Below are positions 7,958 through 42,519 of a stretch of DNA of 46,588 nucleotides, piece by piece. The first letter of the stretch is position 1. The number at the start of each line of letters is the position of its first letter. The notes beneath the pieces are model-generated. The model ran no database searches. It saw nothing but the letters and a program-made list of their open reading frames with translations, and was not told the origin of the DNA. The position numbers and the translations under genes were made by a program. The stretch is taken from NCBI GenBank assembly GCA_026398135.1, contig JAPLTN010000070.1, positions 1 to 46,588 on the forward strand, in the 5' to 3' direction. Source of the DNA: Verrucomicrobiota bacterium. Its GTDB lineage: Bacteria > Verrucomicrobiota > Verrucomicrobiia > Opitutales > Opitutaceae.

Positions 7958-9400
7958 TCAGCGAATACGGGAGAGAAAGAGGGTGAGGCCCGGGCGCACT
8001 TCGTAGGGCGTGAACGTCATGTCCGGCTCCGCGAACTCGGCTAGGTAGGCGGCTTCGATCAGCAGCATACCGGCTTGCAGCTTGGCGGGCGGCTCCGGCC
8101 AGTAACCGGCTTCGTAGCGCCGCAGCGTCCACGGCAAGGGCCAGTAGTCGCGAGCGACGACTTGGACCAGGAGCGGTCGTCCCGGAGTTGCTGCGACGCG
8201 GGCCGCGAGGTCGGTTTCCAGGCGGGCGAGATCGGGGCTGCCGGGCGAGTAAGCGAGCGGATTGGCCGGATCCACCGCGTGGCCTTGGCAACGGGCGTAG
8301 GTCTCGGTCGCCAGCAGTCCGGCGACGAGAAACCCGGCGGCCACCGCCAGCCCGACGAGCCGCCGTTCGCGCATGCGGGCGACGAAAGCCGCCGCGCCTA
8401 GACCGGCCAGCAGCGCCAGAGGTAAGAGGGGCGCGAGGACCAGCCAGGGGGTTTTATAAGGGAGGATAGTAAAGAACAGGGTCATTAGCGCGAAACCCAG
8501 GGCAAGTGCCCGGGCCAGCGGCAGGCGGCGGTGTATCCAGAAGCCGAAACCTCCGAAACCGAGTAACGCCCACGTGCTCCACGGCCAGCCGACCGGCGAC
8601 GGGGCGAGGAACCACTGGGCGTAGGTGAACCACGGGTGGGCGTGTTCGGAGCCGTGGCTGCGGCCGACTTGTTGGCCGATTGCGCGGAACAGGTCGAAGG
8701 CTCGTTCCGGGTGGCGGCCGAAGTCGCTGTAAAAAAACAGCACCACGGCCAAGCAAAGCGCGCCGGCTTGGCCGCTGACCACGAGCACCCGGCGCCAAGG
8801 CGGACGCGCGCTGACGAGAATCGCAAGTCCCAGCAGTCCCATGAGCGGGGCACCGGTTTCCTTGGTTGCGAGGAGCAAGCCTGCGCAAAGACCGGTGAGC
8901 AGCGTGGTGCGGGTGCCGGCTCCATTGTAGGCGTGCCAAGCAGCGATAAACCAGCCGAGCAGTAGCAGCAGCACGAAGGATTCGTGGATGAACGTGCCGC
9001 TGTAGTAAACAAACGGGGCGGACAAGCTGAGAAAGAACGCCGCACCCAAGGCGGGCGCTAAACCGAAAAGCGGGAGGAACCAGGCGGCGGCTGCGGCCGC
9101 GAGGGCGGCTCCGGCGACCGCTGGGAAAATCCGGAGCATCCAGATATCCCAGTCGGCCGCCTGGCCTGCGCCGGTCGCGCGCAGGACGGCGGCGCTGAGG
9201 TGATACAAGGTGGGACCGTGGTGATCGTGCAGAAGGTAACGGTAGCCGTCGCCGGAAACGAGGCCGTCGAGCTGGTGGGCGTTACCCGCTTCGTCGGGGT
9301 GAACCGGGCGCGACTCCAAACCGGGCAACCGCAGCAGCAGAGCGACCACGAAGACGAGGAGCGGCGCTAGCCAGTGAAGGAAGGGCCGCGTGTCGCTCAC
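7958..9400 (-). CDS. Agl23-like membrane protein (TIGR03663 family, GT-C fold)
   Basis: 480 residues with roughly ten or more transmembrane helices. The first extracytoplasmic loop carries PVHPDEAGNAHQ, an acidic motif as in GT-C (GT39/GT83) glycosyltransferases that use polyprenyl-phosphate sugars, followed by LLHDHHGPTLYHL. The pattern matches TIGR03663, named for the archaeal flippase-associated protein Agl23. The C-terminal ~100 residues form a soluble domain. It starts with GTG at 9400, overlapping the stop of the discoidin-like gene (GTGA). A polyprenyl-phosphate glycosyltransferase is encoded at 2208-2966 on the same strand, which could supply its lipid-linked sugar (inference). Confidence 0.8.
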   Translation of the reverse strand: MSDTRPFLHWLAPLLVFVVALLLRLPGLESRPVHPDEAGNAHQLDGLVSGDGYRYLLHDHHGPTLYHLSAAVLRATGAGQAADWDIWMLRIFPAVAGAALAAAAAAWFLPLFGLAPALGAAFFLSLSAPFVYYSGTFIHESFVLLLLLGWFIAAWHAYNGAGTRTTLLTGLCAGLLLATKETGAPLMGLLGLAILVSARPPWRRVLVVSGQAGALCLAVVLFFYSDFGRHPERAFDLFRAIGQQVGRSHGSEHAHPWFTYAQWFLAPSPVGWPWSTWALLGFGGFGFWIHRRLPLARALALGFALMTLFFTILPYKTPWLVLAPLLPLALLAGLGAAAFVARMRERRLVGLAVAAGFLVAGLLATETYARCQGHAVDPANPLAYSPGSPDLARLETDLAARVAATPGRPLLVQVVARDYWPLPWTLRRYEAGYWPEPPAKLQAGMLLIEAAYLAEFAEPDMTFTPYEVRPGLTLFLSRIR

Positions 9401-10053
9401 TTCACCGGTGTGCCCCAGACCTCAACCTCGATGTAGTGGTTGGCCGAGTTAGCCGAGTTGCCGTTGCTATAAAGCCTCACGTAGCGACCTTTCGCGCCTT
9501 TGGCATCGAGCAGGCGTCCCCGATTGGTTTCGATGTAGGACTTGTCTTTGCCGGCGCCGCGTCCACTGAGGTTTTTGGCGTCGTTATTGTAGATCACCGT
9601 GACCCCGGAAATGAAGTCGGGATCGTCGGATATCTGCACCACAACACCCAGGTAAACACGCTGCTGGGAGTGGTAATGCCAGAGGTAAACCGCATTAAGC
9701 TCGGCGGTCTGGCCGAGGTCGATCTGCACCCATTGCGTGCCCTTGGCCATTTCGACGTAACTGCCCTCGGCACTGTCCTTGTCGCCGTCGGTGATAAGGT
9801 CGTAGTCACCGAGCAGTGGAGCGGGATCACTGCTGGTAACAGGGCGATTCAATGCCAGGTTTTTGGCCGTTTTTGGCACCATAAACGGAGCGTCTGGCGC
9901 GGGAGCCGTTTCGAGATTATCAACCTTTATCGCCACGGGCGTGCCGATGATCATCGGCTTGGGCAATTCCGTGATCAAGGGCACCAGATCGTCGGCGCGG
10001 GCGCCACCGGTTAAAGCCAGGGCGGAGAGCAGGAGAGTGAGGACGGATTTCAT
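9397..10053 (-). CDS. Secreted discoidin (F5/8 type C)-like protein
   Basis: 218 residues from ATG 10053, chosen because it begins a clean signal peptide (MKSVLTLLLSALALTGGARA); the long upstream frame is read-through of the preceding Gfo/Idh gene. After a linker, NLALNRPVTSSDPAPLLGDY begins a galactose-binding-like beta-sandwich with WVQIDLGQTAELNAVYLWHY and a final YVRLYSNGNSANSANHYIEV. Such domains bind carbohydrate or decorate exported enzymes; here the domain is nearly the whole protein. It starts 11 bp after a Tat-exported Gfo/Idh gene and overlaps the Agl23-like gene, so it is probably part of that operon. Confidence 0.8.
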   Translation of the reverse strand: MKSVLTLLLSALALTGGARADDLVPLITELPKPMIIGTPVAIKVDNLETAPAPDAPFMVPKTAKNLALNRPVTSSDPAPLLGDYDLITDGDKDSAEGSYVEMAKGTQWVQIDLGQTAELNAVYLWHYHSQQRVYLGVVVQISDDPDFISGVTVIYNNDAKNLSGRGAGKDKSYIETNRGRLLDAKGAKGRYVRLYSNGNSANSANHYIEVEVWGTPVK

Positions 10054-10064
10054 CGTATGAGGGG

Positions 10065-11429
10065 TTAAACTGCGGGTTCCGTGATGGTGATGAGTTGGCG
10101 TTTTTCGATGGCTTCGATGGCCTTGAAAATCGGGTATTCGCTGCGGAAGGCTTCGTCGGCCGGGCAGTTGAGTTTGGCTTTGCCGCGGATCGCTTGGAAA
10201 AAGTTTTCCAGGTGATATTGGTGGATGGCCTTGTTCAAGGTGACCGGTAATCCGTAGGTAGCCAAGGGCGCGGTCTCGCGGGCGTCCACTTTGGCGTCGG
10301 CGGCGGGCGCGGCGGCAGCGGCGGCAAGGTCGGCACGCAGGTAGTTTTTGCGCACCCACTCTTCCCAGGAAGGAGCGGCCGCTTCGCGGTAGATCTTGGT
10401 CTGGCTGGGATTTTCGGAAATACGAATGGTGCCCTCGCTGCCCATGAACTGTTCCCAGTAGCCGCCGCCGGAACTGGTGGTGGTTTGCACCTGGTAAAAG
10501 GCGCGCGCCACGTTGCCGTCGAGCTGCGGGAATTCGTAAATCACCATGGCGTTGTCGAACCACTCGTGGTTCTTGTAAAAATCGACTCCGCCGCTGGCGA
10601 TCACGGTGCTGGGCAAGCGACCAAAGAACCAACTGAAGATATCGATCTGGTGCGCGCCCAAGTCGGAGAGCGGGCCGCCGCCGAACTTCTTGTACCAGCG
10701 CCAGTTTCTAAACGTGGCCATGTCGGGGTAGCCGTAGTGGGCCAAGGTCTCCGCCGGGATGTCGGACTTTTTTGGCCAGCCGAGGTCCTTGGTGACGGCG
10801 CGATTCCACTGGGCCTGGGCACCGGTGAGTTGCCCGACCAGCTTGGCCTCACCCAGCAGGCGCTCACGGGTAAAGCGGTAGCGAGGGTTACTGTGGCGCT
10901 GGTGGCCAATCTGGAGCAGGCGGCCAGTCTCTTTCATCGTCTGCACCATGGAGCGGGCGCCCTCCACGGTGTTGGACATCATTTTCTCACAGTAAACGTG
11001 CAAGCCGGCCTTGAGGCAGGCGTTGGTGTGGGGCGCGTGGAAGACGTCCGGCGTGGCGATGACGACCGCGTCGAGGCCCTTTTCCTTGGCGAGCATCTCG
11101 TCGAGGTCGCTGTAGCCGGTCAGGTCGATGCCGGCCGCTTTGAAATAACGTTCTCCGTAGGTGCGGGCGTAGTCCCACATGTCGCACAGGGCGACGAGTT
11201 TGATGTCGCCGATTTTGAGCAGGCTTTCGGCCAAGATGCGACCTTGGGCGCCGTAGCCGACCAGGGCCACGCGCAGCGGCTTTTCCGCCGATCCGGCGGC
11301 GCTGGTGACCTGGCCGAAAAGCCGGGGCGTGCTGGCGAGGGCCAGGGCTCCGGCGGAAAGGCCAAGAAAGTTCCGTCGGGAAAAACCGGTGGAGGGGGAT
11401 GGGGAGGGGGTGGCAGGGGAAGCGTTCAT
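10065..11429 (-). CDS. Tat-exported Gfo/Idh/MocA family oxidoreductase
   Basis: 454 residues. The N-terminus holds a twin-arginine signal (FSRRNFLGLSAGALALAS), so the enzyme is folded with its cofactor before export. The Rossmann segment is VALVGYGAQGRI, followed by VIATPDVFHAPH and CEKMMS (the family's EKP position reads EKM). The C-terminal domain carries SDLGAHQIDIFSW with the expected catalytic His. An Ala-rich insert (ADLAAAAAAPAADAK) lies near residue 385. The family oxidises or reduces sugars with bound NAD(P). It follows the DoxX-like gene by 11 bp and precedes the discoidin-like gene by 11 bp. Confidence 0.92.
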   Translation of the reverse strand: MNASPATPSPSPSTGFSRRNFLGLSAGALALASTPRLFGQVTSAAGSAEKPLRVALVGYGAQGRILAESLLKIGDIKLVALCDMWDYARTYGERYFKAAGIDLTGYSDLDEMLAKEKGLDAVVIATPDVFHAPHTNACLKAGLHVYCEKMMSNTVEGARSMVQTMKETGRLLQIGHQRHSNPRYRFTRERLLGEAKLVGQLTGAQAQWNRAVTKDLGWPKKSDIPAETLAHYGYPDMATFRNWRWYKKFGGGPLSDLGAHQIDIFSWFFGRLPSTVIASGGVDFYKNHEWFDNAMVIYEFPQLDGNVARAFYQVQTTTSSGGGYWEQFMGSEGTIRISENPSQTKIYREAAAPSWEEWVRKNYLRADLAAAAAAPAADAKVDARETAPLATYGLPVTLNKAIHQYHLENFFQAIRGKAKLNCPADEAFRSEYPIFKAIEAIEKRQLITITEPAV

Positions 11430-11440
11430 GGGGTAGAGTT

Positions 11441-11965
11441 TTAGGCGCGGGTAATGGCGAAGCGGTTGTGGTCAACCAAGGTGAGCGCGAGGGCGACCAA
11501 GCCCACGTGGATGGCCAGCCAGGATACGCCGGCATCCTGACCGATGAGCATGAGGCCGAAGGTGAGCGCGGCGTAGAGCCCTGCCATGGCGAAGAGGGTC
11601 AAACGACTGGCCACACCCGCCAGCAGCAGGAGACCGAGGATAATCAAGGCCGGGCCGAGCAGGGCGTAAAAGGGCGTGCAGAGAAAACCGGGCAAGAGAG
11701 GCTCGCCGGCAAACTTGGTCTGCAAGGAATCGGGGAGGGCGTGGTAGTATTTAAGCCCGTACACCTTTTGCTCCACGTCCATCATCGCCCCGCTCATGTC
11801 GGGCTGCCCTTTGGCATCCAGCATCGGTTCCTGGACGGTGATTTTTGCGGAGTATTTTTCCAGTCCGGTGACCAGGGCGCGCGAGCCCAGCCACAGGCGC
11901 AGGGAGAGAAAGGCCAGGGAGTGGCCGGTGAGTCCAAAGACGGTGGTCGGGGTGGGAGTACTCAT
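11441..11965 (-). CDS. DoxX-like integral membrane protein
   Basis: 174 residues from ATG 11965 (MSTPTPTTVFGL). Four hydrophobic segments are visible: around LAFLSLRLWLGSRALV, FYALLGPALIILGLLLLAG, LTLFAMAGLYAALTFGLML and WLAIHVGLVALALTL, in the DoxX/SURF4-like pattern. A longer frame to 12181 is rejected because its N-terminus is encoded by repeat C and by the tail of another gene. DoxX-like proteins are inner-membrane proteins sometimes tied to quinone-linked oxidoreductases. Its position directly before a Tat-exported Gfo/Idh suggests it may serve that enzyme (inference). No clear ribosome-binding site. Confidence 0.72.
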   Translation of the reverse strand: MSTPTPTTVFGLTGHSLAFLSLRLWLGSRALVTGLEKYSAKITVQEPMLDAKGQPDMSGAMMDVEQKVYGLKYYHALPDSLQTKFAGEPLLPGFLCTPFYALLGPALIILGLLLLAGVASRLTLFAMAGLYAALTFGLMLIGQDAGVSWLAIHVGLVALALTLVDHNRFAITRA

Positions 11966-12035
11966 TTTTTTAAACAGGGGATGGTGGATGAGGGAAACTA
12001 GGAACCAGCCAGTAGCGTGGATTGCTTGCGCATAG

Positions 12036-12085
12036 GAACCTTGTTGCGTCCGGGCTGGGCGGATGCAGGCGGCGAATCCAAAAGC
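12036..12085. repeat. Repeat C, partial copy
   Basis: About 45 bp containing TTGCGTCCGGGCTGGGCGG and ATGCAGGCGGCGAA, almost identical to 13908-13952 at the 3' end of the GH97 gene. On the minus strand both encode GFAACIRP-x-RTQ, but here the reading is not part of a real gene. It appears to be a transplanted GH97 3' end or a mobile repeat, upstream of the DoxX-like gene. Confidence 0.65.
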
Positions 12086-12146
12086 CCAACCGACGACAAG
12101 GATGGCGAGAACGTGACGGACTTGTTTCGTGATGTGTTCCTGTGGT

Positions 12147-12452
12147 TCATTGGGGTTGTTTGGGGTGATAAGGATAATCAAACGGCGCGGTGCGGAGCAC
12201 CTTTACCTTCCGCCCGTCAATCTGTTGTACTTGATTGGGGGCCTTCGTAAATTCATGGCGGTTGCTGCCGTCGCGAAGTGTGACGGACTGCGGCGCAGAA
12301 TCAATGTCCACAACTTCGCACACTTTACCTTCAAGATCGGTCACGACGCGTACGCCCGGCGTGCAGGAGAAAACCTCCTGTCCATTGACGCGTGCCGTGC
12401 ACTGCCCTTGTTTCGCAGAACATTGCTCAGCAATGTGATAGCCATTATCATA
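12147..12452 (-). pseudogene. Orphan C-terminal fragment of an unrecognised protein
   Basis: A single open minus-strand frame can be read from about 12452 to the TGA at 12147. It passes through AKQGQCTARVNGQEVFSC, TPGVRVVTDLEGKVCEVVD and VKVLRTAPFDYPYHP. It has protein-like composition, but its only ATG (12344) is far inside. At its 5' side the sequence runs into the 144-bp repeat in another frame, so upstream coding sequence has been lost. I do not recognise the family. It is probably the tail of a secreted or carbohydrate-related protein cut by the rearrangement that produced the flanking repeats. No other gene is seen between 11966 and 12534. Confidence 0.5.
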
Positions 12453-12580
12453 TTTTTAATTAACATAAGATTCGTTGAGGTTTTTAATTTTTTATGGGGT
12501 GAGTATTTCTGAGAAGTATTAGTCTATACGTGTATCACTGGGGTTCCTTGACCAGCTTCAGTTTTATCATGCTTACCGGC
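12437..12580. repeat. 144-bp direct repeat, copy 1
   Basis: About 144 bp nearly identical to 13585-13729. It contains, on the minus strand, the last ~15 codons of the GH43-like gene (ending KLVKEPQ at 12535), the ~70-bp spacer, and then a second start, ATG at 12466, encoding MLIKNMIMAI, which closely matches the N-terminus of the same gene before the sequence diverges into unrelated DNA. The unit is therefore a gene-end/spacer/gene-start junction left by a tandem array. Confidence 0.85.
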
Positions 12581-13614
12581 CAATACCGTTTCTTGTTCTC
12601 GGCGGTATAAAACAGGGTAAAGGTATCATTGCCTTCATCGATCAGTCCCAAGGGTGTACGGATATCGACGGACCAATTCGCGGAACCCGGCGGTTGAACC
12701 ACGATTCTGCCGCCCGCCGCCCAGTTAATGCCATCGGTGGATGTGGTATATCCGACCGAAGTCTTTTCCCGATAATATTTTGGGGCAGGAGCATTAACAA
12801 TGCCAGAGTCGTAAACCGCGACATACAAATCGCCGATACGTGTGACAATCGGATTCTCATTAAAAACAGGTTCAATGGGCAGCGGATTTCCTTCTACACG
12901 CCGCTTCCAAGGCCCCGTCAAGGCGGGGGCTTCCGCAAGGCCTACTAGCCAACCAGGCGCTCCGCCTTGACTACAATAAAAGGCTAACCAGCGATCCTTA
13001 ATCCGATAGGGAAAGAATGAGGGAGTGCCTTGCCAACCTTCCCACTTCTGCGAATCAGCATCCGGCTGCAGAACTATCCCCACATCCTTGTAGGGGCCGA
13101 CGATGCCGGCGCGGCCTTGTACCGTTGACGTGGCGCGCCAGCTGCGTCCGCCGGTGGCCCCTCCCTTATCGTAGGCAGTATAAAACAATTCCCATACCTT
13201 GTCAGCGTCGTTGTAGATAGGCATGGGTGCCCAGACAGACTCATAGGGCAGCCCCGTTTCGGCGCGTGGTTTGCCGGATGTTTCCTTGATGGTTGATACC
13301 CGCTTCCATTCAATTCCATTCGGACTGGTCCAGATCGCCAGACGCATCTTCACCCAGAAGGGGTCTCCAGCCATTTCGGCCGTGAACAGGTAGTATACGC
13401 CATCTAGCTTCACCACCGAACCTCCTTCAAACCCGTATTTGTTATCCTTGGAATCCGGATGGTCCGAATCAATCACGGGTATTTCCCGCAACTCCAGTAT
13501 TTCAAAACGAATAGGATTTTTCAATTCAGGATTGGGCGTGCTCTCCGCGCAAACAATTCCGCGGGCCACAGTGCCCAGGACTGCGATAGCCATTATCATA
13601 TTTTTAAGTAACAT
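12535..13614 (-). CDS. Secreted five-bladed beta-propeller protein, GH43/GH117/GH130-like
   Basis: 359 residues with a signal peptide (MLLKNMIMAIAVLGTVARGIVCAE). The body shows repeated propeller-blade motifs: GGSVVKLDGVYYLFTAEM, AIWTSPNGIEWKRVS, ESVWAPMPIYNDADKVWELF, GPYKDVG, GTPSFFPYRIKDRWLAFY, NPIVTRIGDLYVAVYD and YTTSTDGINW. This is the layout of glycosidases and phosphorylases of the GH43, GH117 and GH130 type, which often release arabinose, xylose or anhydro-galactose units. The catalytic acids cannot be assigned with confidence, so family and substrate stay open. It is flanked by a 144-bp direct repeat and by a 298-bp gap from GH97. Confidence 0.65.
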   Translation of the reverse strand: MLLKNMIMAIAVLGTVARGIVCAESTPNPELKNPIRFEILELREIPVIDSDHPDSKDNKYGFEGGSVVKLDGVYYLFTAEMAGDPFWVKMRLAIWTSPNGIEWKRVSTIKETSGKPRAETGLPYESVWAPMPIYNDADKVWELFYTAYDKGGATGGRSWRATSTVQGRAGIVGPYKDVGIVLQPDADSQKWEGWQGTPSFFPYRIKDRWLAFYCSQGGAPGWLVGLAEAPALTGPWKRRVEGNPLPIEPVFNENPIVTRIGDLYVAVYDSGIVNAPAPKYYREKTSVGYTTSTDGINWAAGGRIVVQPPGSANWSVDIRTPLGLIDEGNDTFTLFYTAENKKRYWPVSMIKLKLVKEPQ

Positions 13615-13729
13615 AAGATTCCTTGAGGTTTTTAACTTTTTATGGGGTGAGTATTGCTGAGAAGTATTAGTCTATACGCGTATCACTGGGGGTTCCTTGA
13701 CCAGCTTCAGTTTTATCATGCGTACCGGC
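13585..13729. repeat. 144-bp direct repeat, copy 2
   Basis: Matches 12437-12580. On the minus strand it begins with the tail of a lost paralogue (RMIKLKLVKEP, then a one-base shift to PVIRV and a TAG stop), continues through the shared spacer and ends in the true start of the GH43-like gene at 13614. It shows that another copy once lay upstream. Confidence 0.85.
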
Positions 13730-13851
13730 AACGGGAGGCTTGCCCCCTTGCTGGAGTTTAATTCAAGAAAAGTCCGGATCATATAATTCATAAGTTAAGG
13801 ATTTCTAGTTACTTGATATTTCAAGGGTCGTTACTGGGGTCGTTTTGTGTC

Positions 13852-13952
13852 CATGGGGTTCTTTTTTATGACCTGCGATTTTAATGTTACTCAGCGAAAA
13901 CGTTCAGGAACCTTATTGCGTCCGGGATGGGCGGATGCAGGCGGCGAAACCT
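13852..13952. repeat. Repeat C, full copy at the GH97 3' end
   Basis: About 80 bp aligns with 19377-19460. Shared blocks, read on the minus strand, are CCCGGACGCAAT, AGGTT-CCT/TCT, AACGTTTT, GTAACA and CATAAAAAAG. In this copy the element overlaps the last codons and TAA of the GH97 gene and lies about 240 bp upstream of the GH43-like gene. Its 3' half also recurs at 12036-12085. It may be a regulatory or processing site common to these genes, or a small mobile repeat. Confidence 0.65.
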
Positions 13953-16360
13953 CCATCGCCCACCATCGGTATTTCGAGCGAATCTTTGGCCGTGATCGGG
14001 CGGGTGGTGTCGGTGATTTCGGTCGCGGTGGTGGCGGATTCCGGTTTGTCGGCAAAGATCCGGATGGTGTGCGCGCCTTTGCCGAGGAAATCCAGCGGCA
14101 CGCGCAGGGTGAGCGGCTTGTCGTGGTTCATGGCCGCGATATACCAGATGTCGCCTTTGCGTCGTGCTTCGACCAGGTGCTCGGCGAGATCGGCGGAGAG
14201 CACGCGGGTTTCATCCCACACGGTGGGCAGGCCGCGAAAGTATTCGAGACCGGTCTGGCCGCGGTAGTTGGCAGGCGAGTCCGCCATGCAGAGCAGCGGT
14301 GAATCGAGCACAGTGGCCAGCGCGAGTTGCCGGGCGCGGGTGCCCATCACCTGGGTGGGGGAAGTTTTACGCCACTGCGAAACGCTGCGGTTGAGAAAGC
14401 CACCGGGGGTGAAATCCCCAGGTCCTAGCAAATTGCGGGTGAAGGGCAGGGTGATGTGGTGCTTGGGATCGCAGTATCCGCCCATCTTGTTGTATTCGTT
14501 GCCCAAGATAGCTTCCTGCGTGATGTAGTTCGGCCAGGTTCGGGCCAGGCCGGTGGGTGTATAGGCACCGTGGAAATTTACCAGCAGTTGATGTTTCGCC
14601 GCACTGGCGAGAACCTCCTCGTACCACTTGACGATATCTTGATCACTACGGTCCATGAAGTCGATCTTGACACCGGCGGCGCCCCATTTTTTCACGGTCG
14701 CCAAGGTTTTGTCGATGCCGATGCGGTTTACATTGTTGTAATGCAGCCACAACATTAGTTTGACATTCTTCTGTCCGGCATAGGCAAACAGAGCCGGTAA
14801 ATCGATGGTGCCGTTCACTTTGAGTTCGGCGTTAGGGTCATGCGGGACCACGTCCGGCATGACGGGGTCGCACCATCCCCAATCGACCTGCATGTAGGGC
14901 CAGCCCATTTCGGAAGCGAGATCGATGTATTCCTTGTTGGATGCCATGTTACCATAGCCGTTAATGCTCCACCATTTATCCCATGCCATGATGCCGGGAC
15001 GGATCCACGAGGTGTCCGCAATCTGGCTGGGCGTTGCGAGATTCACCATAATGTTAGACTCAATCAGGGTGCCGGGATTCCGACCGACCAGCAACACTCG
15101 CCATGGCGACTGGCGCGGCGTGGCGGAGACCACATTGGACGCCAGTTCGGCTCCCAAAGTGACCGGCCCGGAATGGACCGTATTGGCCACGCGGAAAACC
15201 GCGCTACCCTTGCCCGATGTCGCGTCGTCGATTCCGACCACGGCTTTGAAACGCACGAAAGGGCTGCCCTCCGTCTTGAGCGCATATTTGATCCGGCTGG
15301 CAGAATGGGTGCCCAGACCCTGCGCGTAAATCTTGCCGCGAAGCGTTATAGGCTTACCGTTAACAGTTAGATTTTTTTGCAGTTTACCGTAGCCCTGAGT
15401 GGCAGCCACGGGTGTAAGCGAGGAAAGCGAGACCTCGGAACCATCGGCCCGGACGAGGCTGGCATCCGCCCATACGGTATGGTCGTTGGTGTATCCGTCG
15501 TCGGCCTCGGTGGTTTCCAACACCAGGTCCGGCAGTTTGGAAACATCCACATCGATCACCAGCGGTGGCGATTGACCGGTCAGTGTGGCGGAGGAAAACA
15601 GCGGAGCATTCTGTTGTTTATGCCCTTTTATAAACATCCCGGCCCAATCCCTCACATCGGCTTCGGCGATGGCGACGGTGGCATGGTCGGTTTGCGCCAC
15701 CACCGGGAGGCACATCTTGGAGTCTGGCAGCGCGGCCAGGCGGGTCTCCGGGTATTGCACCTCGCCGAAATACTTTGCCCAGCGGCCGCCTAGCGCTCGT
15801 GCGTCCTGGGGAAAGGTGAAGGCGGTCTGGTCGGACGTGAGGGTGAACGCCGCCAGATCCTTTTGCGCCGGCAGATCGTAGCGCAGCGCCACGCCATCGT
15901 CGTAGGCGCGCACCACCACATCGAACAAAACGGGGGATGCCGGTGCCGGGCGGATTTCCTTAAAATGAATGCGGGTTTCGTTAAAATGATCGCGCACCTT
16001 GGAGCTCTTGCCGAAATCATTCCGCCACCAGGTGTCGCTGGTGCGCTGCTCGAAGCCCAGCAATTGCACTTGTTCACCCAGCTTCAGGCCATCGCCAAAT
16101 GCCAAACCAAGCCGGGATGGTGCCAGCAGGGGTTTGCCGTCCAGTTGGACCTGATACGTTAGCGGTCCTTGGACATCCACCGTGACCGCCAATGAGCCGT
16201 CAGGAGAAATGACCCCTGCTGTCGGATATGCCGACACCGAGACAGTCCATGAAGCGATGCCCGCCAGACACGCGAGGATGCGCGGACTGAGGATCGTCAA
16301 AGTGCGCGGCAAGCGCAGGGAATTGCGCCCTTTTTGGCTAAGGATATTGAGTGTAATCAT
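13913..16360 (-). CDS. Glycoside hydrolase family 97 with a nested NPCBM domain
   Basis: 815 residues, exported (long n-region, hydrophobic core near 26-44). The N-terminal GH97 super-sandwich starts at AYPTAGVISPDGSLAV. An insertion at about 278-395 (VLETTEADDGYTNDHTVWAD to GKGSAVFRVANT, with QGLGTHSASRIKYAL) has NPCBM/NEW2 character, a galactose-binding-like fold. The GH97 scaffold then resumes at SPWRVLLVGRNPGTLIESN, with MAWDKWWSINGYG, MQVDWGW and the TIM barrel. KIDFMD (565-570) and ITQEAILG (Glu616) correspond to the nucleophile and acid regions of retaining GH97 alpha-galactosidases; inverting members differ there (inference from memory). The final residues and stop lie inside repeat C. 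It is 61 bp downstream of the GH-D-like gene. Confidence 0.9.
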   Translation of the reverse strand: MITLNILSQKGRNSLRLPRTLTILSPRILACLAGIASWTVSVSAYPTAGVISPDGSLAVTVDVQGPLTYQVQLDGKPLLAPSRLGLAFGDGLKLGEQVQLLGFEQRTSDTWWRNDFGKSSKVRDHFNETRIHFKEIRPAPASPVLFDVVVRAYDDGVALRYDLPAQKDLAAFTLTSDQTAFTFPQDARALGGRWAKYFGEVQYPETRLAALPDSKMCLPVVAQTDHATVAIAEADVRDWAGMFIKGHKQQNAPLFSSATLTGQSPPLVIDVDVSKLPDLVLETTEADDGYTNDHTVWADASLVRADGSEVSLSSLTPVAATQGYGKLQKNLTVNGKPITLRGKIYAQGLGTHSASRIKYALKTEGSPFVRFKAVVGIDDATSGKGSAVFRVANTVHSGPVTLGAELASNVVSATPRQSPWRVLLVGRNPGTLIESNIMVNLATPSQIADTSWIRPGIMAWDKWWSINGYGNMASNKEYIDLASEMGWPYMQVDWGWCDPVMPDVVPHDPNAELKVNGTIDLPALFAYAGQKNVKLMLWLHYNNVNRIGIDKTLATVKKWGAAGVKIDFMDRSDQDIVKWYEEVLASAAKHQLLVNFHGAYTPTGLARTWPNYITQEAILGNEYNKMGGYCDPKHHITLPFTRNLLGPGDFTPGGFLNRSVSQWRKTSPTQVMGTRARQLALATVLDSPLLCMADSPANYRGQTGLEYFRGLPTVWDETRVLSADLAEHLVEARRKGDIWYIAAMNHDKPLTLRVPLDFLGKGAHTIRIFADKPESATTATEITDTTRPITAKDSLEIPMVGDGGFAACIRPSRTQ

Positions 16361-16421
16361 GACGCGGGAATAACGTGCAGGTGCGGTCGGATATTTAATT
16401 TTTCATTTTCGTGTATTCTTT

Positions 16422-19313: not shown

Positions 19314-19376
19314 GCGGGTTACCAGGAAATTGCTTTTAGGGGGTTGGATAGGCATTTGTATAAATTTGATTTGTCT

Positions 19377-19460
19377 CAATGAGGTGCTTTTTTATGCCAA
19401 CGATTCCTTGTTACCCTCCGAAAAACGTTGAGAAACCTCATTGCGTCCGGGAGGGGCAGA
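19377..19460. repeat. Repeat C, full copy upstream of the GH-D-like gene
   Basis: Aligns over about 80 bp with 13852-13935: on the minus strand CCCGGACGCAAT, AACGTTTTTCGG, GGGTAACA and GGCATAAAAAAGCACC. It lies just after the ThuA-HEAT stop and ends about 65 bp before the chosen start of the glycosidase gene, a position suited to a leader or operator. An AACGTT core is visible, but no regulator can be assigned. Confidence 0.6.
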
Positions 19461-19473
19461 TAACCGTCGCGAG

Positions 19474-22209
19474 TTACTTTGCGGGTTCTTCGGCTTTGAA
19501 TTCCTTCAGAAATTCCTGCGCTTCATTGGTCTTGAGTTCGCGAACTGCCGCCAGAATAGCGTTTTTCTCCTCACTGCGGATGGCCAGCGGCCAAAGAGAA
19601 CGGTAGGCGGCGATTTGCCCGATTTTATTCAGGTTTTCGATCGCTGGAATGGTTTCGATACAGCCACGGAAAGCCAGAATGCGCTCATCTTCGTTGGTAG
19701 CCTTCTTAGCGGTGGCTTGCAGAAGTTTAAGCGAGCCTTCGATGCGGGCGGCGGAGAGGGCGCGAATCACGTCCTTGCGGTCAGCGGCGTCGGGGGCGTT
19801 GAGCAAACGGGCCAGCAGGGTGTCCGCCTCCGGTCCCTTTACCAGGGTTAGCGCCCCGATAAAGGTTGAGCGGCCGCCCGGTTGCGCGGGATCGGCTATG
19901 GCCCCGCCCAAAAGCTCGGCGGCCTTGGCGGCATCGTCCACAAAACCGACCGAGGTGAAGAGCGCCTTGCGAAATCCGCGCTGGTCGGCGCTTTTTTTGG
20001 CGTTTTCCGACAGTTTGATAATGCTGGCCATGGGCACGGAGTGCGCGATGTCGCCCAGGGCCGTGAAGGCCGCAGCGCGCAACCCGGCTTCGGGCGATGC
20101 GCACAATTCCATGATCAGTGCCTGAGCGGAAATCACCTGGCGGTCTCCCAGCAGGGAAAGAAGGGCGGCGCGCACCGCCGGGCTTGAGTCCGATTTGCCT
20201 GCGGCCTCGGTCAAGCGCGTCGATAAATCCCTGGCCTGCGAAGCCGAAAGCGCGCGGTAGGCGGCGTCGCGCACCGGGCCGCCCCCAACCAGTCGCGGAG
20301 CAAGCGCCAGCAGTGCTTCGGTATTTTCGACGCGGGCGAGCGCGGCAATACCGACGGTGATCACAGCGGTGTCCGTCGAGTCCAGACTCAGTCGGGCCAA
20401 ACCAAGCCCCGAGTCGTCAGCCACCGCAGAAAGGGCGGCGATTTGCGTGTCGTTGCCAAGCTTGGGCCAGGCCGCCGCGAGCTCGGCGATGGGTGCGGCC
20501 TGGCGACTGCGCACTATGGCGGCGGCGGCGGCCTGGCGAACGCGGGGCTCCGGGTCGCCCAGCCATTTAACCAACCGTTTGGATTTCTCGGGTGTCAGCG
20601 ACTTGGCCAGGAGGACGATGGCTTCAGCCCGGTCGGAGGGTGCCGTGGCTTTGGCGAGGAGTTTTTCGGCCAGGGTCGCCACGGCAGGGGCGGCTTTGGC
20701 GTCGCGGTCCAGCCACGCGTAGGCCGCAGCGAGGGCGAGGGGCGTCGCATCGGGACCGGCCGGCAACGAGAGCAAGAAATCGACCGAGCTTTTGACACCA
20801 TACGAAGCAATGGCGGCACGCGCCGCGCGGGCGTCGCTGGCATCGGCGTTTTTTGCCACTGCGGACAGCACGCCAAAAGTCGCAGGTGTGCGGTAAGAAC
20901 GCAGTGCGTCGATAAAGGGCGTGCGAGTGCCTGCGGCGCGTTTCTCCACGATTTTTATCAGCGCGCTTTCTGCTTCGGGCAAACGAAGCTGCCCCAGTAC
21001 TAGCGCGCTTCGCTCGGCCAGTCCGGGTTCGTCGGAAACGGCGGTGGCGGCGAGCGCGGGCACCGAGGCCGCGGTGCCCTTCAAGGTGAGCCGGTCCAAA
21101 GCCGCGAACTTGCTGGAAAGCGGCGCGGCGGGATCCAAAAGGATGGCAATCAAGGCCGGTTCTGCGAGCGCGGTCGGCGTTTCTGTGCCGGGCGTGGCGG
21201 CGGGTGCGCTCACTTTGGCGTCGGTCGCGGCAGCCGCCTTGGGTTTGGCGGCGGGTTTGAGCCAGATGTCCTGGATCGTCGTCGTCTCGTTCGGAGCGAG
21301 CGCGGGAGTAAACTTGCCGGCTTGGGCGGAAGGCCTGGCGTCGGCCGCCAGATCGCCTAGCGCGTAGCGGATGCCTTCGAGCAGGTGACTCAGGACCGGC
21401 CGCACATAAAAAATATCCTCGTTGTGGCCGAGCGAAGTGTAAAAGACCCGGCCCTTGCCTTCGGTGTGAATCCAACTGACCGGGAAGTCGTTGTCGGTTC
21501 GTTTGATTTTATCCGCCGGGCGGGCGTTTTGCGTTTTACTCATATCCAGGCTGAGCAACACGCGCTGTTTCTCACGGCTGTAAGGGCCGCTGATTTGGTA
21601 AAGTTCCTCGCGTATCCAAAAACCCGTTTCTCCGAAGGGCAGGTTGAGCACATGCTTCGGTTCGTCGAGTTTGACCGCACTGACTTCACCCGCATTCCAA
21701 GGATGGCTGTGGAACACACCGCCGATAAGCGCCTGGCCCTCGGGCCAGTCCGGAAAGTTGTCCGTCGCGGCATGCAGGCCAATCACGCCTTTGCCGCCGC
21801 GCACGAACTCCAAAAGCGCCTGGCGGTGCAGCGGATCGGTGAACTTGAGGCCGGTGCTGTTCAAGAAAACCACCGCGTCAAAACGCGCCAGGTTCTCCGG
21901 CGTGAACTGCGCCATGTCTTCGCTGGCTGCGGTGGTGAAGGCCTTGGTTTTTTCGCCGAGCCGCTGCAAAGCCAGAATGCCGACGGGGATGGACTTATGG
22001 ACGAAGCCCTCGGTGCGGAAAAAAACCAGCACGCGGCGGGCTTGGGCGGGGGCAAACGTGTCTGGCGGCAGACCGGCCTCGATCAAGGCGGTTTGTTCGG
22101 CCGTAACCGGCTTGAACGGGTGGCCGGGCTCGGCGCGGAGGCTGGTGGCGAGGGTGGTGCAAAAGCTCAAAAAGAGCAGGGAAACCAGGGGGCGTTGGGG
22201 AAAATGCAT
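19474..22209 (-). CDS. Secreted ThuA domain protein with C-terminal HEAT repeats
   Basis: 911 residues with a signal peptide (SLLFLSFCTTLATSLRAE). The ThuA/trehalose-utilisation domain covers about 57-290, with RVLVFFRTEGFVHKSIP, FDAVVFLNSTG, GKGVIGLHAATDNF, IGGVFHSHPW, PVSWIHTEGKGRVFYTSLGH and LLEGIRYALGD: a class I glutamine-amidotransferase-like fold. A Pro/Ala-rich linker (about 295-345) leads to a long alpha-helical region of Ala/Leu-rich HEAT repeats (about 350-900) such as GDPEPRVRQAAAAAIVRS. ThuA proteins are linked to keto-disaccharide metabolism. The HEAT array suggests a binding platform (inference). It follows the DUF1080 gene by 39 bp. Confidence 0.9.
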   Translation of the reverse strand: MHFPQRPLVSLLFLSFCTTLATSLRAEPGHPFKPVTAEQTALIEAGLPPDTFAPAQARRVLVFFRTEGFVHKSIPVGILALQRLGEKTKAFTTAASEDMAQFTPENLARFDAVVFLNSTGLKFTDPLHRQALLEFVRGGKGVIGLHAATDNFPDWPEGQALIGGVFHSHPWNAGEVSAVKLDEPKHVLNLPFGETGFWIREELYQISGPYSREKQRVLLSLDMSKTQNARPADKIKRTDNDFPVSWIHTEGKGRVFYTSLGHNEDIFYVRPVLSHLLEGIRYALGDLAADARPSAQAGKFTPALAPNETTTIQDIWLKPAAKPKAAAATDAKVSAPAATPGTETPTALAEPALIAILLDPAAPLSSKFAALDRLTLKGTAASVPALAATAVSDEPGLAERSALVLGQLRLPEAESALIKIVEKRAAGTRTPFIDALRSYRTPATFGVLSAVAKNADASDARAARAAIASYGVKSSVDFLLSLPAGPDATPLALAAAYAWLDRDAKAAPAVATLAEKLLAKATAPSDRAEAIVLLAKSLTPEKSKRLVKWLGDPEPRVRQAAAAAIVRSRQAAPIAELAAAWPKLGNDTQIAALSAVADDSGLGLARLSLDSTDTAVITVGIAALARVENTEALLALAPRLVGGGPVRDAAYRALSASQARDLSTRLTEAAGKSDSSPAVRAALLSLLGDRQVISAQALIMELCASPEAGLRAAAFTALGDIAHSVPMASIIKLSENAKKSADQRGFRKALFTSVGFVDDAAKAAELLGGAIADPAQPGGRSTFIGALTLVKGPEADTLLARLLNAPDAADRKDVIRALSAARIEGSLKLLQATAKKATNEDERILAFRGCIETIPAIENLNKIGQIAAYRSLWPLAIRSEEKNAILAAVRELKTNEAQEFLKEFKAEEPAK

Positions 22210-22248
22210 GACGATGAGGTTTAAGGGGAGGAAAGTTAAGCGGACGGG

Positions 22249-23037
22249 TTAATCGGCGATGGGAACGAGCCAGATGTTGCGGTAGCGGAGCACATCTCCG
22301 TGATCTTGCAGGGAGAGGGGGAGCCGGTCGGCGTGGGCCGCGTAGGGCGGGCGTTTTTTCCAGCCGGTGGGGCCGGTCAACTGCACGTTATTTTGCACGC
22401 GAACGCCGTTTACCTCGACGGTCAGACGAGCCGGGCGAACCAGGTTTCCCTGGGCGTCAAAGATCGGACGGCGAAACTCGATATCGTAGTATTGCCATTC
22501 CCCGGCCGGCCGGAGGGCGTTGGCCGAGGGTGGAAACTGGCCGTAAACCGCCCCCGCATGGCCGTCGGCATAGGTGGCGCCGTCGAGGGAATCGAGCACC
22601 TGAACCTCGTAACGTCCCATGAGAAACACCCCGCTGTTGCTACGGCTCTGGCCGCTTTTTCCGGGCGGCAGGCCGGGTGGACTCCACCATTCGAGATGCA
22701 GGCGACAGGAGCCAAAACCGGCGCGCGTAATCAGGCTGGGTCTCCCCTTGGTGGTAACAATTTCGAGGTAATCGTCGGTGGCCTTCCAGGTGGAGTCGCC
22801 CCAGGCATCGAGCCCCCGCCCGTTAAAGAGGATAATTGCCCCGGCGGGTGGCTGGGCGCGTTCCGCCAAAGCGGCGGCGGGCAAGGGCTCGACCCGAGAC
22901 GGCCGGGGCCGGGCCGGGTCGTGCGGGGCAAAACTCAGATCCGCCGTTGTCACCGGCTCTGCTGCCTCGACGGCGGCCATGAACCCGCTCAGGGGCAACA
23001 CGGCGGCCAGCGTTAAAGAGGTAAGATGGGAGGCCAT
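22249..23037 (-). CDS. DUF1080 (3-keto-disaccharide hydrolase family) secreted protein
   Basis: 262 residues, signal peptide MASHLTSLTLAAVLPLSGFMAAVEA. The concanavalin-like jelly-roll of PF06439 is clear: IILFNGRGLDAWGDSTWKA, HLEWWSPPG, SNSGVFLMGRYEVQVLDS, GEWQYYDIEFRRP, ARLTVEVNGVRVQNNV and LSLQDHGDVLRYRNIWLVP. Family members cleave glycosides whose sugar has been oxidised at C3, by lyase or hydrolase chemistry. It lies between a Tat-exported Gfo/Idh enzyme (12 bp upstream), the likely C3-oxidising partner, and ThuA-HEAT (39 bp downstream). The three are probably one transcription unit acting in the periplasm. Confidence 0.92.
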   Translation of the reverse strand: MASHLTSLTLAAVLPLSGFMAAVEAAEPVTTADLSFAPHDPARPRPSRVEPLPAAALAERAQPPAGAIILFNGRGLDAWGDSTWKATDDYLEIVTTKGRPSLITRAGFGSCRLHLEWWSPPGLPPGKSGQSRSNSGVFLMGRYEVQVLDSLDGATYADGHAGAVYGQFPPSANALRPAGEWQYYDIEFRRPIFDAQGNLVRPARLTVEVNGVRVQNNVQLTGPTGWKKRPPYAAHADRLPLSLQDHGDVLRYRNIWLVPIAD

Positions 23038-23049
23038 AAGATGTCCTCT

Positions 23050-24384
23050 TTAACTCTGCAGAACGTAAGGGGCGCGGTAGGTGCGAGTCAGGAAGCGCTG
23101 CGCTTCGGGCGCGCCGACGATTTCGCCGGCGGCGGCATTCCACACGACCGTTTCGCGCCCGCTGCGAATGGCCGCGTTGGCCAGATGGGCGACGGTGGTG
23201 ACTCGGCTCACCTCGTCGATGGGTGAACGGGGGCGGGCACCCGTGCGGATGCACTCGATCATGTTCTCGTAGTGGCCCACCGTGCTCGGGCCGAAAATCT
23301 GTTGCGTGGAGGGTATGACCAGACGCTTGAGACGGTCGTTGGAATAACTAATCCGACCCCGATCCACGGCTATCCAGCCTTCCGTGCCTTCGTAACGCAC
23401 GCCGCCTCCAAACGAGGATGACACCGAAATAACGGTTCCATTGGCGTAAACCGCCTCAAAACTATACTTGGTGGCCGTGGCCCGCAGCTCGACCGGTAAA
23501 TCCGGAAAAGTACCTTTCGCTTCGCGAATTTCGCTCACTTCCACGCCTTCCAAGCCCAGCCCCAAGACCGCAATATCGTGATGATGGCAAATCCAGTCGG
23601 ATAGCTGACCGCCGCCGAAGTCGTAGCACCAGCGCCAGTTGTAATGCATTTTGGCATTTTCCTTCAAAGCACAGTAGGGCCGGTAAGGAGCGGGACCCAG
23701 CCAACGCCCGTAATCAAAGTCGGAGGCGGCGGGGACCGGGCTGGGTTTCAGATTCTGATAAAGCCCACCCCCGGGCAGGCCCACTTGCACACGGGTGATT
23801 TTTCCTAAATAGCCACCGCGCACCAAGCTCATCGCCCGGCGGAATTCACCACTGGAGCGTTGCATGTTACCCAGCTGACAGACCACTCCCGCGCGCTCCA
23901 CAGCCGCTACCATCGCCCGGCACTCTATGATCGAATTGGCGACCGGTTTTTCACAATAAATGTGTTTGCCGGCGCGAGCCGCGTCAACAACCGGGAGGGC
24001 ATGCCAGTGGTCCGGCGTGGCCACCAGCACCGCATCAATATCGGGTCGGGCCAATAACTCGCCATAATCCAGGTAACTCTCGCAGCCCAGGTATTTATCT
24101 TGTCCACTCCGGCTGGCATAAAACCCCTCCAACGAGGCTTTTGTAGTATCACGACGTCCGCGATCCACGTCGCATATGGCAACGAATTGCACGCCATTTA
24201 TATAACGAAACCCGTACATCACATGATTGCCCTGGTTCCCGGCACCGATCAACCCGAAGTTGATCCGGTTGGACGGAGCGATGCCGCCACCGAGCCCGAG
24301 GGTCGAGGCTTTGACGATTTGGGGAAACATCACCGCCGCCGGGGCGGCGGTGGAAATAAGTTTGAAGAACGAGCGTCGATTCAT
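23050..24384 (-). CDS. Gfo/Idh/MocA family oxidoreductase with export signal
   Basis: 444 residues. The start MNRRSFFKLISTAAPAAVMF is a short twin-arginine-type leader. The Rossmann segment is FGLIGAGNQGNHVM, then LVATPDHWHALP and CEKPVAN (EKP present). The C-terminal half has YNWRWCYDFGGGQLSDW and CHHHDIAV; the usual G-x-H motif reads WICHHHD. The WDY/RPY segments (GRWLGPAPYRPY) are typical of the planctomycete/verrucomicrobial exported subgroup. Best candidate for the C3 oxidation feeding the adjacent DUF1080 protein (inference). It is 61 bp downstream of the AraC regulator gene. Confidence 0.92.
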   Translation of the reverse strand: MNRRSFFKLISTAAPAAVMFPQIVKASTLGLGGGIAPSNRINFGLIGAGNQGNHVMYGFRYINGVQFVAICDVDRGRRDTTKASLEGFYASRSGQDKYLGCESYLDYGELLARPDIDAVLVATPDHWHALPVVDAARAGKHIYCEKPVANSIIECRAMVAAVERAGVVCQLGNMQRSSGEFRRAMSLVRGGYLGKITRVQVGLPGGGLYQNLKPSPVPAASDFDYGRWLGPAPYRPYCALKENAKMHYNWRWCYDFGGGQLSDWICHHHDIAVLGLGLEGVEVSEIREAKGTFPDLPVELRATATKYSFEAVYANGTVISVSSSFGGGVRYEGTEGWIAVDRGRISYSNDRLKRLVIPSTQQIFGPSTVGHYENMIECIRTGARPRSPIDEVSRVTTVAHLANAAIRSGRETVVWNAAAGEIVGAPEAQRFLTRTYRAPYVLQS

Positions 24385-24445
24385 GGGGGTGTTAATTTAT
24401 CGGTTGAGAAGGCAGTAACTTGAACGAAGAAAAATGCTTGTGCCT

Positions 24446-25216
24446 TTATCCGCGCTTGTGCGCGGCACGGTAACGGCGAGGGGTGGTGCCAAAGTTTTGG
24501 GTGAACAGCGCCGTCATGTGGCTCTGATCGCAAAAACCGCAGGTAGCCGCGATCGCCCCCACACTGTCATCGTGGGTGAGCAACAGGTGGCGGGCGGCGC
24601 GCAGACGCACCGCATTCAAATAGCGCAGCGGAGAGGTTTTAAAAATCTGCGCGAAACGCCGCTCCAGCGTGCTCGCCGACAACCCGGATAGCCGCACAAA
24701 ATCATGTATGGTAAGATTTTGCCCATAGTGCTGCCCGATATGCTCCAACACCGAAAAAATGCCGGGCGGACACGCGGTATTCGCGCCGTCAATCAGACAG
24801 GTGACGCCGGCCACACCGATTACCGTGCCCTCTGCGTCGCGCATGGCGACCTTGGTAACGGTACGCCACTCAAAGGTGCGGTCCAAGCGGGGCACCGGTT
24901 CGATTTGTTGCAAGATGGGTTCGCCAGTCGTCAACACGGCACGGTCGTCTTCGATAAAGTGAGCGGCGATCTCGGGTGGGAAAAAATCCGCGTCCGTGCG
25001 ACCCAAAATATCTTCCAGACAGCGCGCCCCCAACATCGCCACAAAACCAGGATTGGCCTGCACAAAGCGTCCGTGCTCATCCTTCGCAAAATAATTCACC
25101 CCCGGAATATGCCCAAGCAGCAGCTCGATGTGGCGACTGCTGTTCATGCGACGATAGAACGCATCAAGGTCAAAGGCAGCCAGCTGCGGGGCGGCAGAGG
25201 ACTCGGTCAGGGGCAT
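24446..25216 (-). CDS. AraC-family transcriptional regulator with PAS sensor domain
   Basis: 256 residues. An N-terminal PAS domain (about 28-140) has IPGVNYFAKDEHGRFVQANPGF, LGRTDADFFPPEIA and EWRTVTKVAMRDAEGTVIGVAGV. The C-terminal two-helix-turn-helix DNA-binding domain (about 155-254) has LSASTLERRFAQIFKTSPLRYLN, RHLLLTHDDSVGAIAATCGF and SHMTALFTQNFGTTPRRYR. No transmembrane segment, so a cytoplasmic ligand is expected. It heads the co-directional glycan gene run, 61 bp before the Gfo/Idh gene, and is its likely regulator. Confidence 0.92.
   Translation of the reverse strand: MPLTESSAAPQLAAFDLDAFYRRMNSSRHIELLLGHIPGVNYFAKDEHGRFVQANPGFVAMLGARCLEDILGRTDADFFPPEIAAHFIEDDRAVLTTGEPILQQIEPVPRLDRTFEWRTVTKVAMRDAEGTVIGVAGVTCLIDGANTACPPGIFSVLEHIGQHYGQNLTIHDFVRLSGLSASTLERRFAQIFKTSPLRYLNAVRLRAARHLLLTHDDSVGAIAATCGFCDQSHMTALFTQNFGTTPRRYRAAHKRG

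Positions 25217-40443: not shown

Positions 40444-42519
<2,076 letters not shown>

Follow-up and report, generated by a model that had tools for sequence, protein, structure and literature searches.

A putative oxidative 3-keto-sugar operon with three late-inserted exo-glycosidase genes in a member of the Opitutaceae

Analysis of a 46,588-nucleotide stretch from a Verrucomicrobiota bacterium of the family Opitutaceae (GCA_026398135.1, contig JAPLTN010000070.1; hereafter the window) pointed to an oxidative sugar-catabolic operon on the minus strand that gained three exo-glycosidase genes by a late insertion, an explanation that as a whole is assigned a probability of about 0.5. The observations behind it are the gene content of the run, the conservation of its core, the linkage of a DoxX-like gene with a gene for an exported Gfo/Idh oxidoreductase (GfoB), and the absence of these three glycosidase genes from this place in relatives. 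Late arrival of the glycosidases between the ThuA and DoxX-like genes of an older operon is very probable, and an oxidative 3-keto-sugar function of the operon around them is the favored assignment, if by a smaller measure. The window represents one whole contig (C54; labels beginning with C, G, and L are our own for contigs, genomes, and loci) of a 3.39 Mb assembly in 117 contigs. The original prediction for this DNA had described ten genes at 9397-25216 as one composite glycan locus. Open reading frame (ORF) calls and Pfam recovered all ten on the minus strand and in the order described. The interval proved too short, as the same-strand run extended past 9397 to 2963 with genes for TIGR03663-like, MFS, TIM barrel, Gfo/Idh, and ApbE proteins. 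The features of the run, including the glycoside hydrolase (GH) genes and the candidate twin-arginine translocation (Tat) substrate, are:

24446-25216, minus strand: PAS-AraC regulator (PF12833, PF08448)
23050-24384, minus strand: GfoA, Gfo/Idh oxidoreductase (PF01408, PF19051; EKP and D..CH motifs)
22249-23037, minus strand: DUF1080/3-keto-disaccharide hydrolase family protein with a hydrophobic N-terminus (PF06439)
19474-22209, minus strand: ThuA domain plus HEAT repeats (PF06283, PF13646), N-terminus signal-peptide-like by eye without a flag in the hydropathy scan
19370-19461, minus strand: repeat R1, directly after ThuA, 79% like R2
16422-19379, minus strand: GH-D-like (GH36-like) protein, putative inserted gene (PF16874; likelier start at ~19313 by eye)
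13913-16360, minus strand: GH97 with NPCBM, putative inserted gene (motif KIDFMDR)
13844-13951, minus strand: repeat R2 at the GH97 3' end
13675-13729, minus strand: scar, 3' end fragment of a second GH43-like gene
12535-13614, minus strand: GH43/GH130-like protein with a hydrophobic N-terminus, putative inserted gene (PF04616 below cut-off)
12420-12534, minus strand: scar, 5' fragment of a further GH43-like gene plus its upstream stretch
12150-12416, minus strand: scar, 89-codon open gene remnant
12034-12079, minus strand: repeat R3, preceding the DoxX-like gene, a copy (93%) of the GH97 3' end
11441-11965, minus strand: DoxX/MauE-like small membrane protein
10065-11429, minus strand: GfoB, putative Tat-exported Gfo/Idh (Tat motif SRRNFL)
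9397 to ~10053 (likely start), minus strand: F5/8 type C (discoidin-like) protein, N-terminus signal-peptide-like by eye (PF22633)
7958-9400, minus strand: TIGR03663-like multi-pass membrane protein (114.8 bits, cut-off 126.25)
6253-7839, minus strand: MFS transporter (PF07690)
5173-6234, minus strand: TIM barrel without an export signal, 2-hydroxy-3-keto-glucal hydratase homologue (PF01261)
3884-5047, minus strand: GfoC, Gfo/Idh without an export signal
2963-3862, minus strand: ApbE-family protein, signal peptide not seen (PF02424)

The insertion was recognized by comparison with relatives. Thirty-five stretches of up to 20 kb were fetched from same-family genomes in two sets (15 and 20), most of them picked by a full-length DoxX match and two (L084 and L090) for ThuA; L090, lacking a DoxX or F5/8C anchor, was excluded, leaving 34 loci that were scored with thresholds set by the authors, and a further 20 F5/8C-anchored loci came from outside the family. 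None of the 34 family or 20 outside stretches held any of the three glycosidase genes. At E≤1e-20 the GH-D-like gene was confined, among 150 family genomes, to that of the window, and it was found in three of 308 phylum genomes, in one of them (G339) by its C-terminal part only; its named relatives are Verrucomicrobia metagenome-assembled genomes that are lake-derived by their names, and in the two neighborhoods examined by Pfam (L034 and L191) it was accompanied by other genes, those of L034 including a SASA esterase and GH32/43-type and WbsX-type proteins. The GH43-like gene was found in four of the 308 phylum genomes and was 85% identical to a gene of G262 that adjoins IS200-like and IS110-type transposases. 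Identity between G262 and the window was 45% for the DoxX-like protein, 46% for GfoB, and 52% for the F5/8C protein, and closer for the TIM barrel (79%) and GfoC (64%). Two further GH43-like copies were located in the bacterium's own contig C40, one broken (L189:2526-3484) and one intact (L188:10905-11981), the copies in C40 and G262 being 84-86% identical to the window gene; the neighbors of the intact copy in L188 are rhamnosidase, GH127, and WbsX-type genes.

The joins of the putative insert are marked by decayed repeats. The 92-nt sequence directly after ThuA (R1) recurs at 79% identity at the GH97 end, and a 46-nt part is repeated at 93% ahead of the DoxX-like gene. The intact GH43-like gene is flanked by a 3' end and a 5' end fragment of other such genes. 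Gaps within 9397-25216 ranged from -4 to 61 nt except at the glycosidase sites, where 94 nt preceded the GH-D-like gene and 298 and 569 nt, the two widest gaps of the run, flanked the GH43-like gene and coincided with the repeat and scar joins around it; gaps of 118 and 125 nt occurred farther downstream. Low GC content was confined to the GH43-like gene (0.53, with 0.57 at third codon positions, GC3) and the scars (0.42-0.49), such that base composition was discarded as a general marker of the insert and holds only for these features. The 89-codon remnant at 12150-12416 gave no significant Pfam match and matched none of the fetched loci except this place itself; its identification as a lost gene for a fused TIM barrel and DUF1080 protein was consequently rejected. 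Terminator-like sites over the region were near chance (28 vs. 21.8 expected), so that no clear break was seen in the run, and a promoter scan was likewise close to chance (8 vs. 6.5 expected).

Relatives also supplied the operon without glycosidases. In L152, from another family of the same class, the genes for araC, GfoA, DUF1080, ThuA, DoxX, GfoB, F5/8C, TIGR03663, ApbE, TIM, and GfoC form one run in which neither glycosidases nor an MFS match were found. Within the genus of the window, ThuA directly precedes DoxX in G044 (~50 nt between matches), while the same site in G098 is occupied by a second Gfo/Idh gene and one ORF combining TIM barrel and DUF1080 domains (TIM::DUF1080); the ThuA-DoxX junction accordingly has three states among the three genus genomes read. 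A second Gfo/Idh and a TIM::DUF1080 ORF lie between ThuA and DoxX in L078, L080, and L081, where the window has glycosidases. Taken together, the relatives reveal three layers. The first is a core of DoxX/MauE-like, GfoB, and F5/8C genes, often followed by TIGR03663-like and ApbE genes. The second is a surrounding 3-keto-sugar module that comprises AraC-PAS, GfoA, DUF1080, and ThuA-HEAT upstream and MFS, hydratase homologue, and cytosolic Gfo/Idh downstream, and the third is the late glycosidase insertion. Gene order in relatives, which the original prediction had suggested checking, was conserved for the core and not for the glycosidases.

The oxidative 3-keto-sugar module of the original prediction was borne out at the level of homology. 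The DUF1080 assignment is genuine (PF06439, 119.9 bits vs. a cut-off of 26.8; 4qhz at E 9e-38), and no other protein of this genome matches PF06439 at E≤0.001. GfoA has 8tdf as its best PDB match and the dehydrogenases 8tdf and 8tdh as its nearest solved relatives, while the nearest solved relative of GfoB is DgpA. Both retain two residues typical of Gfo/Idh enzymes, the E-K motif lysine and a histidine, which have a catalytic role in this family, and in 36 aligned GfoB sequences G58, G60, Q62, G63, E148, K149, D256, and H260 were invariant. The N-terminus of GfoA (MNRRSFFK) contains a twin-arginine motif by eye that the narrower Tat pattern did not flag; that pattern flagged only GfoB. The hydropathy threshold flagged only the DUF1080, GH-D-like, and GH43-like proteins as exported, and export of the ThuA-HEAT, GH97, and F5/8C proteins was judged by eye from their N-termini. 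The TIM barrel matched 2zds (E 9e-109) and the 2-hydroxy-3-keto-glucal hydratase 8ro4 (E 7e-36); this homology is the strongest independent sign of 3-keto-glycoside chemistry, and the gene lies outside the interval first described. In NCBIfam, GfoC scored best with levoglucosan dehydrogenase (101.3 bits, below the cut-off of 650), and the TIM barrel gave a weak match to inosose dehydratase IolE. In six loci (L078, L080, L081, L082, L083, and L087) a single ORF just upstream of DoxX combines an AP_endonuc_2-type TIM barrel with DUF1080, both halves being confirmed by Pfam on the L080 protein only, and L086 has consecutive TIM and DUF1080 domains in the same position that are likely the same fusion. 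Such a chain perhaps unites two steps of 3-keto-glycoside cleavage. A regulator matching PAS-AraC precedes GfoA in L080, L081, and L152. Oxidative cleavage at the locus is plausible, although unproven.

The labels given to the glycosidases held up to different degrees. For GH97 they were supported by PF10566 (272.1 bits), with an NPCBM/NEW2 domain inside the GH97 N-terminal domain, and its KIDFMDR motif aligns with KVDFMDR of 3a24, the closest solved GH97 and a retaining alpha-galactosidase; the Asp of this motif we take to be the nucleophile. The cut-off of the NCBIfam equivalog NF053844 was not reached (386.3 vs. 800 bits). Since the motif is retained, alpha-galactosides are the likeliest substrate of GH97 judging by sequence, which keeps the galactose-containing glycan of the original prediction plausible for this enzyme. 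The GH-D and GH43 assignments are weak: only PF16874, the GH36 C-terminal domain, exceeded its cut-off in the GH-D-like protein (36.3 vs. 27 bits), alongside a weak match to GH36 2xn0, and its AlphaFold model from a four-row alignment was unusable, with a mean predicted local distance difference test score (pLDDT) of 37.3. The GH43-like protein scored 30.5 bits against PF04616, below the cut-off of 32.2, and its search against solved chains yielded just one, the 1,2-beta-oligomannan phosphorylase 9fj8 (E 3e-5), presumably a GH130 member.

In the proposed scheme, the inserted exported GH36-like, alpha-galactosidase-type GH97, and GH43/130-like enzymes would act in the periplasm, trimming terminal sugars from an oligosaccharide. 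GfoA and GfoB, exported by Tat with bound nicotinamide adenine dinucleotide (NAD), would then oxidize C3 of the remaining glycoside, and the exported DUF1080 protein, perhaps with ThuA-HEAT, would cleave the 3-keto-glycoside. The MFS protein could import the 3-keto-sugar or 2-hydroxy-3-keto-glycal, after which the cytosolic TIM barrel would hydrate the enone and the cytosolic GfoC would reduce the 3-keto-sugar to an ordinary hexose. The bound cofactor of GfoB would need to be re-oxidized outside the cytosol, the likeliest route being via the DoxX/MauE-like membrane protein and the F5/8C protein. That the inserted glycosidases act jointly with the oxidative operon on one glycan is doubtful. If the insertion is as described, it gives a snapshot of hydrolytic glycosidases joining an oxidative sugar operon within one genus.

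The core showed the tightest linkage of the locus. Among 85 family genomes, 38 carried both the DoxX-like gene (E≤1e-6) and GfoB (E≤1e-100), none carried one alone, and 47 carried neither (Fisher's p 5e-25, a value that ignores relatedness and is only a yardstick). The genes were adjacent in 37 of the 38 pairs, the exception being G057, where GfoB starts at base 44 of a contig and the DoxX match lies on another. DoxX and GfoB were adjacent in all 34 family loci and GfoB and F5/8C in 32 (L081 is cut by the contig end and L084 had no match), with TIGR03663 next in 26 and ApbE within 6 kb in 26. As most family loci had been chosen by DoxX, the linkage was retested from F5/8C and from GfoB: all 17 family genomes carrying F5/8C that were examined from that gene had a DoxX-like gene upstream in the same orientation, at the distance of one Gfo gene. 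Outside the family, DoxX-GfoB adjacency was kept in 11 and GfoB-F5/8C adjacency in 12 of the 20 loci. The F5/8C ortholog family spans the phylum (77 of 387 genomes at E≤1e-10), with a single match in 66 of the 77 carrying genomes and more than one in 11. The DoxX-GfoB link is thus a strong one inside the family and extends to part of the class, without being universal. Tandem F5/8C copies were seen in G226 (L156), G361, G391, and G414, and a second DoxX-like gene in opposite orientation lies beyond ApbE in L095, L096, L097, and L099.

The original prediction had proposed that the DoxX-like protein could connect the exported oxidoreductase to the quinone pool. Its gene linkage with the second exported Gfo/Idh was confirmed, and the DoxX label itself was sub-threshold in Pfam, where the window protein matched MauE at E=0.016 and PF07681 (DoxX) not at all; among 15 aligned proteins including that of the window, nine matched MauE and three DoxX at E≤0.1. 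R23, R29, K37, Y69, Y74, R121, and H153 were invariant in 35 sequences, and W25 and K67 were kept in 34. A role as thiol oxidase was rejected, as a conserved Cys was absent among the 35 sequences and also among the 15, and the single-sequence structure prediction (pLDDT 55.5) was not used for fold searches. The DoxX-like protein and GfoB are in all probability functional partners, whereas a quinone-linked pair is an improbable form of that partnership, the evidence pointing to it being gene linkage. It is similarly a long shot that the DoxX/MauE-like protein, GfoB, and the F5/8C protein constitute an undescribed periplasmic sugar-oxidizing respiratory unit in which electrons pass from the tightly bound NAD of GfoB via the membrane protein to the quinone pool. 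If such a unit exists, the Gfo/Idh proteins of this phylum would be true respiration-linked dehydrogenases and not self-contained oxidoreductases, and the unit would be fed by the 3-keto-sugar operon and the inserted glycosidases. An exported Gfo/Idh with bound NAD has no obvious electron outlet outside the cytosol, and a membrane partner that is co-present or co-absent with GfoB in 85 of 85 family genomes, and stands beside it in other families, is a concrete and testable candidate. A search of open-licence literature found neither a joint role of a DoxX-like protein with Gfo/Idh and 3-keto sugars nor a description of DoxX-like, GfoB, and F5/8C as a fixed unit, both being weak evidence of absence; the DoxX-holding match among the papers listed concerned, by title and abstract, BLUF photoreceptors in Acinetobacter.

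Several observations weigh against an oxidative operon with late-inserted glycosidases. Only 11 of the 34 family loci and one of the 20 outside loci had DUF1080 in the 4 kb upstream of DoxX (downstream copies being uncounted), and ThuA lay upstream of DoxX in six and two, respectively; with both in a minority of core loci, the core is not tied to the cleavage of glycosides. Among the outside loci, five of the 20 (L155, L157, L159, L160, and L161) had GfoB and F5/8C with no DoxX-like gene detected, and four (L142, L146, L156, and L158) had neither GfoB nor a DoxX-like gene detected; small membrane ORFs on the F5/8C strand of 12 outside loci included no DoxX-like substitute beside GfoB. GfoA (136.8 bits) and GfoB (83.5 bits) fell short of the cut-off of 750 for BT_2158_fam, the NCBIfam glycoside 3-dehydrogenase, so that they are homologous to this curated family without being members of it, and all three Gfo/Idh proteins scored far below NCBIfam equivalog cut-offs. 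ApbE attaches flavin at the pattern [ST]GA[STV]x[ST], which was absent from the genes assigned to the operon (ORFs of more than 120 codons in the window and nine loci); none of its six hits was operon-assigned, the one at L081:4232 falling in an unassigned ORF just upstream of araC, and flavinylation of an operon protein by ApbE was rejected as a candidate. Regarding the insertion, the C-terminal GH-D-like part in G339 has a DUF1080 gene of opposite orientation no more than 19 kb away, and GH97 relatives occur elsewhere in the family, the best with 59% identity over the catalytic part. GH97 is also the commoner gene (25 of 308 phylum genomes at E≤1e-60), and a foreign origin is therefore not shown for it. 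GC3 of the GH-D-like (0.73) and GH97 (0.71) genes resembles that of the araC-ThuA half (0.67-0.75; DoxX-to-ApbE genes 0.72-0.87), so composition is no proof of their arrival, and misassembly at the joins may have produced the arrangement instead of insertion. Lastly, every reaction, bound cofactor, transport step, and electron route in the scheme is what we infer for proteins without known activity. Separately, L160, one of the loci without a DoxX-like gene, has on the F5/8C strand at 4380-4913 a 178-codon ORF with five hydrophobic segments that adjoins ApbE.

An alternative is that the core from DoxX-like to F5/8C, with or without TIGR03663 and ApbE, is an envelope or cofactor-handling module of non-catabolic function that 3-keto-sugar genes adjoin by chance in this clade. 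The loci lacking DUF1080 within 4 kb upstream (23 of 34) or upstream ThuA (28 of 34) would fit such a module, as would the single F5/8C match in most carrying genomes, the annotation of TIGR03663 as flippase-associated, and the lack of a visible signal peptide on ApbE. It is nonetheless unlikely, as TIM and DUF1080 domains stand directly upstream in seven of the 34 family loci, six times as one ORF, and a complete catabolic run recurs in another family (L152). Less probable still is the composite system of the original prediction, integrated and selected, in which oxidation and exo-glycosidases jointly dismantle one complex galactose-containing glycan, recalcitrant linkages perhaps being opened by oxidation. 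Its arguments are the single strand with one upstream regulator, the signal-like N-termini, the alpha-galactosidase motif of GH97, and the lack of a clear break in the run. While the 3-keto-sugar part of that system stood, the glycosidases were not part of anything conserved, their combination with it occurring in no other genome examined, the two GH-D relatives examined by Pfam sitting in other contexts, and decayed repeats marking the joins. Equally poor are the prospects of a cytosolic part serving an anhydrosugar, cyclitol, or 3-keto-monosaccharide in a levoglucosan- or inositol-like way and an exported part serving something else: the levoglucosan dehydrogenase and IolE matches suit it, but the best characterized TIM relative is a 2-hydroxy-3-keto-glucal hydratase, whose substrate is formed as well when glycosides are cleaved by elimination (PMC10628242), and the same run encodes an exported DUF1080 protein.

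The oxidative operon with inserted glycosidases resembles several known systems. One is BT2156-BT2160 of Bacteroides thetaiotaomicron, which we take to include an AraC-type regulator and a TIM barrel, and the likeness lies in a periplasmic Gfo/Idh 3-dehydrogenase together with a DUF1080 protein. BT2158 is described as a periplasmic glycoside 3-dehydrogenase of the Gfo/Idh type (PMC11300592) and the DUF1080 protein BT2157 as a 3-ketotrehalose hydrolase (PMC9007349). The window differs in that its Gfo/Idh proteins score far below the BT_2158/BT_2159 cut-offs and in adding DoxX-like, F5/8C, TIGR03663-like, ApbE, and ThuA-HEAT genes and the inserted glycosidases. The same oxidation-elimination-hydration-reduction logic as proposed here is found in the levoglucosan pathway. 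The pathway LgdA-LgdB1-LgdB2-LgdC of Bacillus smithii is reported as enzymatically worked out: it begins with C3 oxidation and beta-elimination, after which a protein with a sugar phosphate isomerase annotation hydrates 2-hydroxy-3-keto-glucal and a Gfo/Idh enzyme carries out the final reduction (PMC7676230). The locus differs from this pathway in that it encodes oxidoreductases and a DUF1080 protein that are exported. LacA of the Caulobacter crescentus lactose route is a GMC-type enzyme, and no Pfam match to this family was obtained among the 30 window ORFs scanned. In that route, the sugar is 3-oxidized in the periplasm by the membrane-bound LacABC enzyme and an exported DUF1080 protein takes part (PMC9007349); this three-component dehydrogenase is of another kind from the NAD-type Gfo/Idh beside a DoxX-like protein in the window. 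The motif of the window GH97 matches that of 3a24, which is presumably BT1871, the alpha-galactosidase of PUL24 in B. thetaiotaomicron. BT1871 is placed in another locus than BT2156-BT2160, and mutants lacking BT2157 or BT2158 grew without defect on raffinose oligosaccharides (PMC11501099), whereas the window GH97 lies within the 3-keto-sugar run. The chemistry thus has precedents in B. thetaiotaomicron, in levoglucosan users, and in Caulobacter, and the fixed DoxX-like, GfoB, and F5/8C unit is the part not found described.

Elsewhere in the window, an ORF at 40408-42549 on the minus strand (713 codons) matched nothing in Pfam or NCBIfam at the thresholds applied. A putative Na+/H+ antiporter at 37563-38369, whose match to PF07399 is confined to the first half of that family (2-189 of 419), is followed by an ORF in another frame (38348-38956), a possible frameshift or split gene. 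Exopolysaccharide export-type genes were identified at 28884-34031, including a CbiA/ParA-type ATPase, Poly_export, and a weak outer-membrane barrel match.

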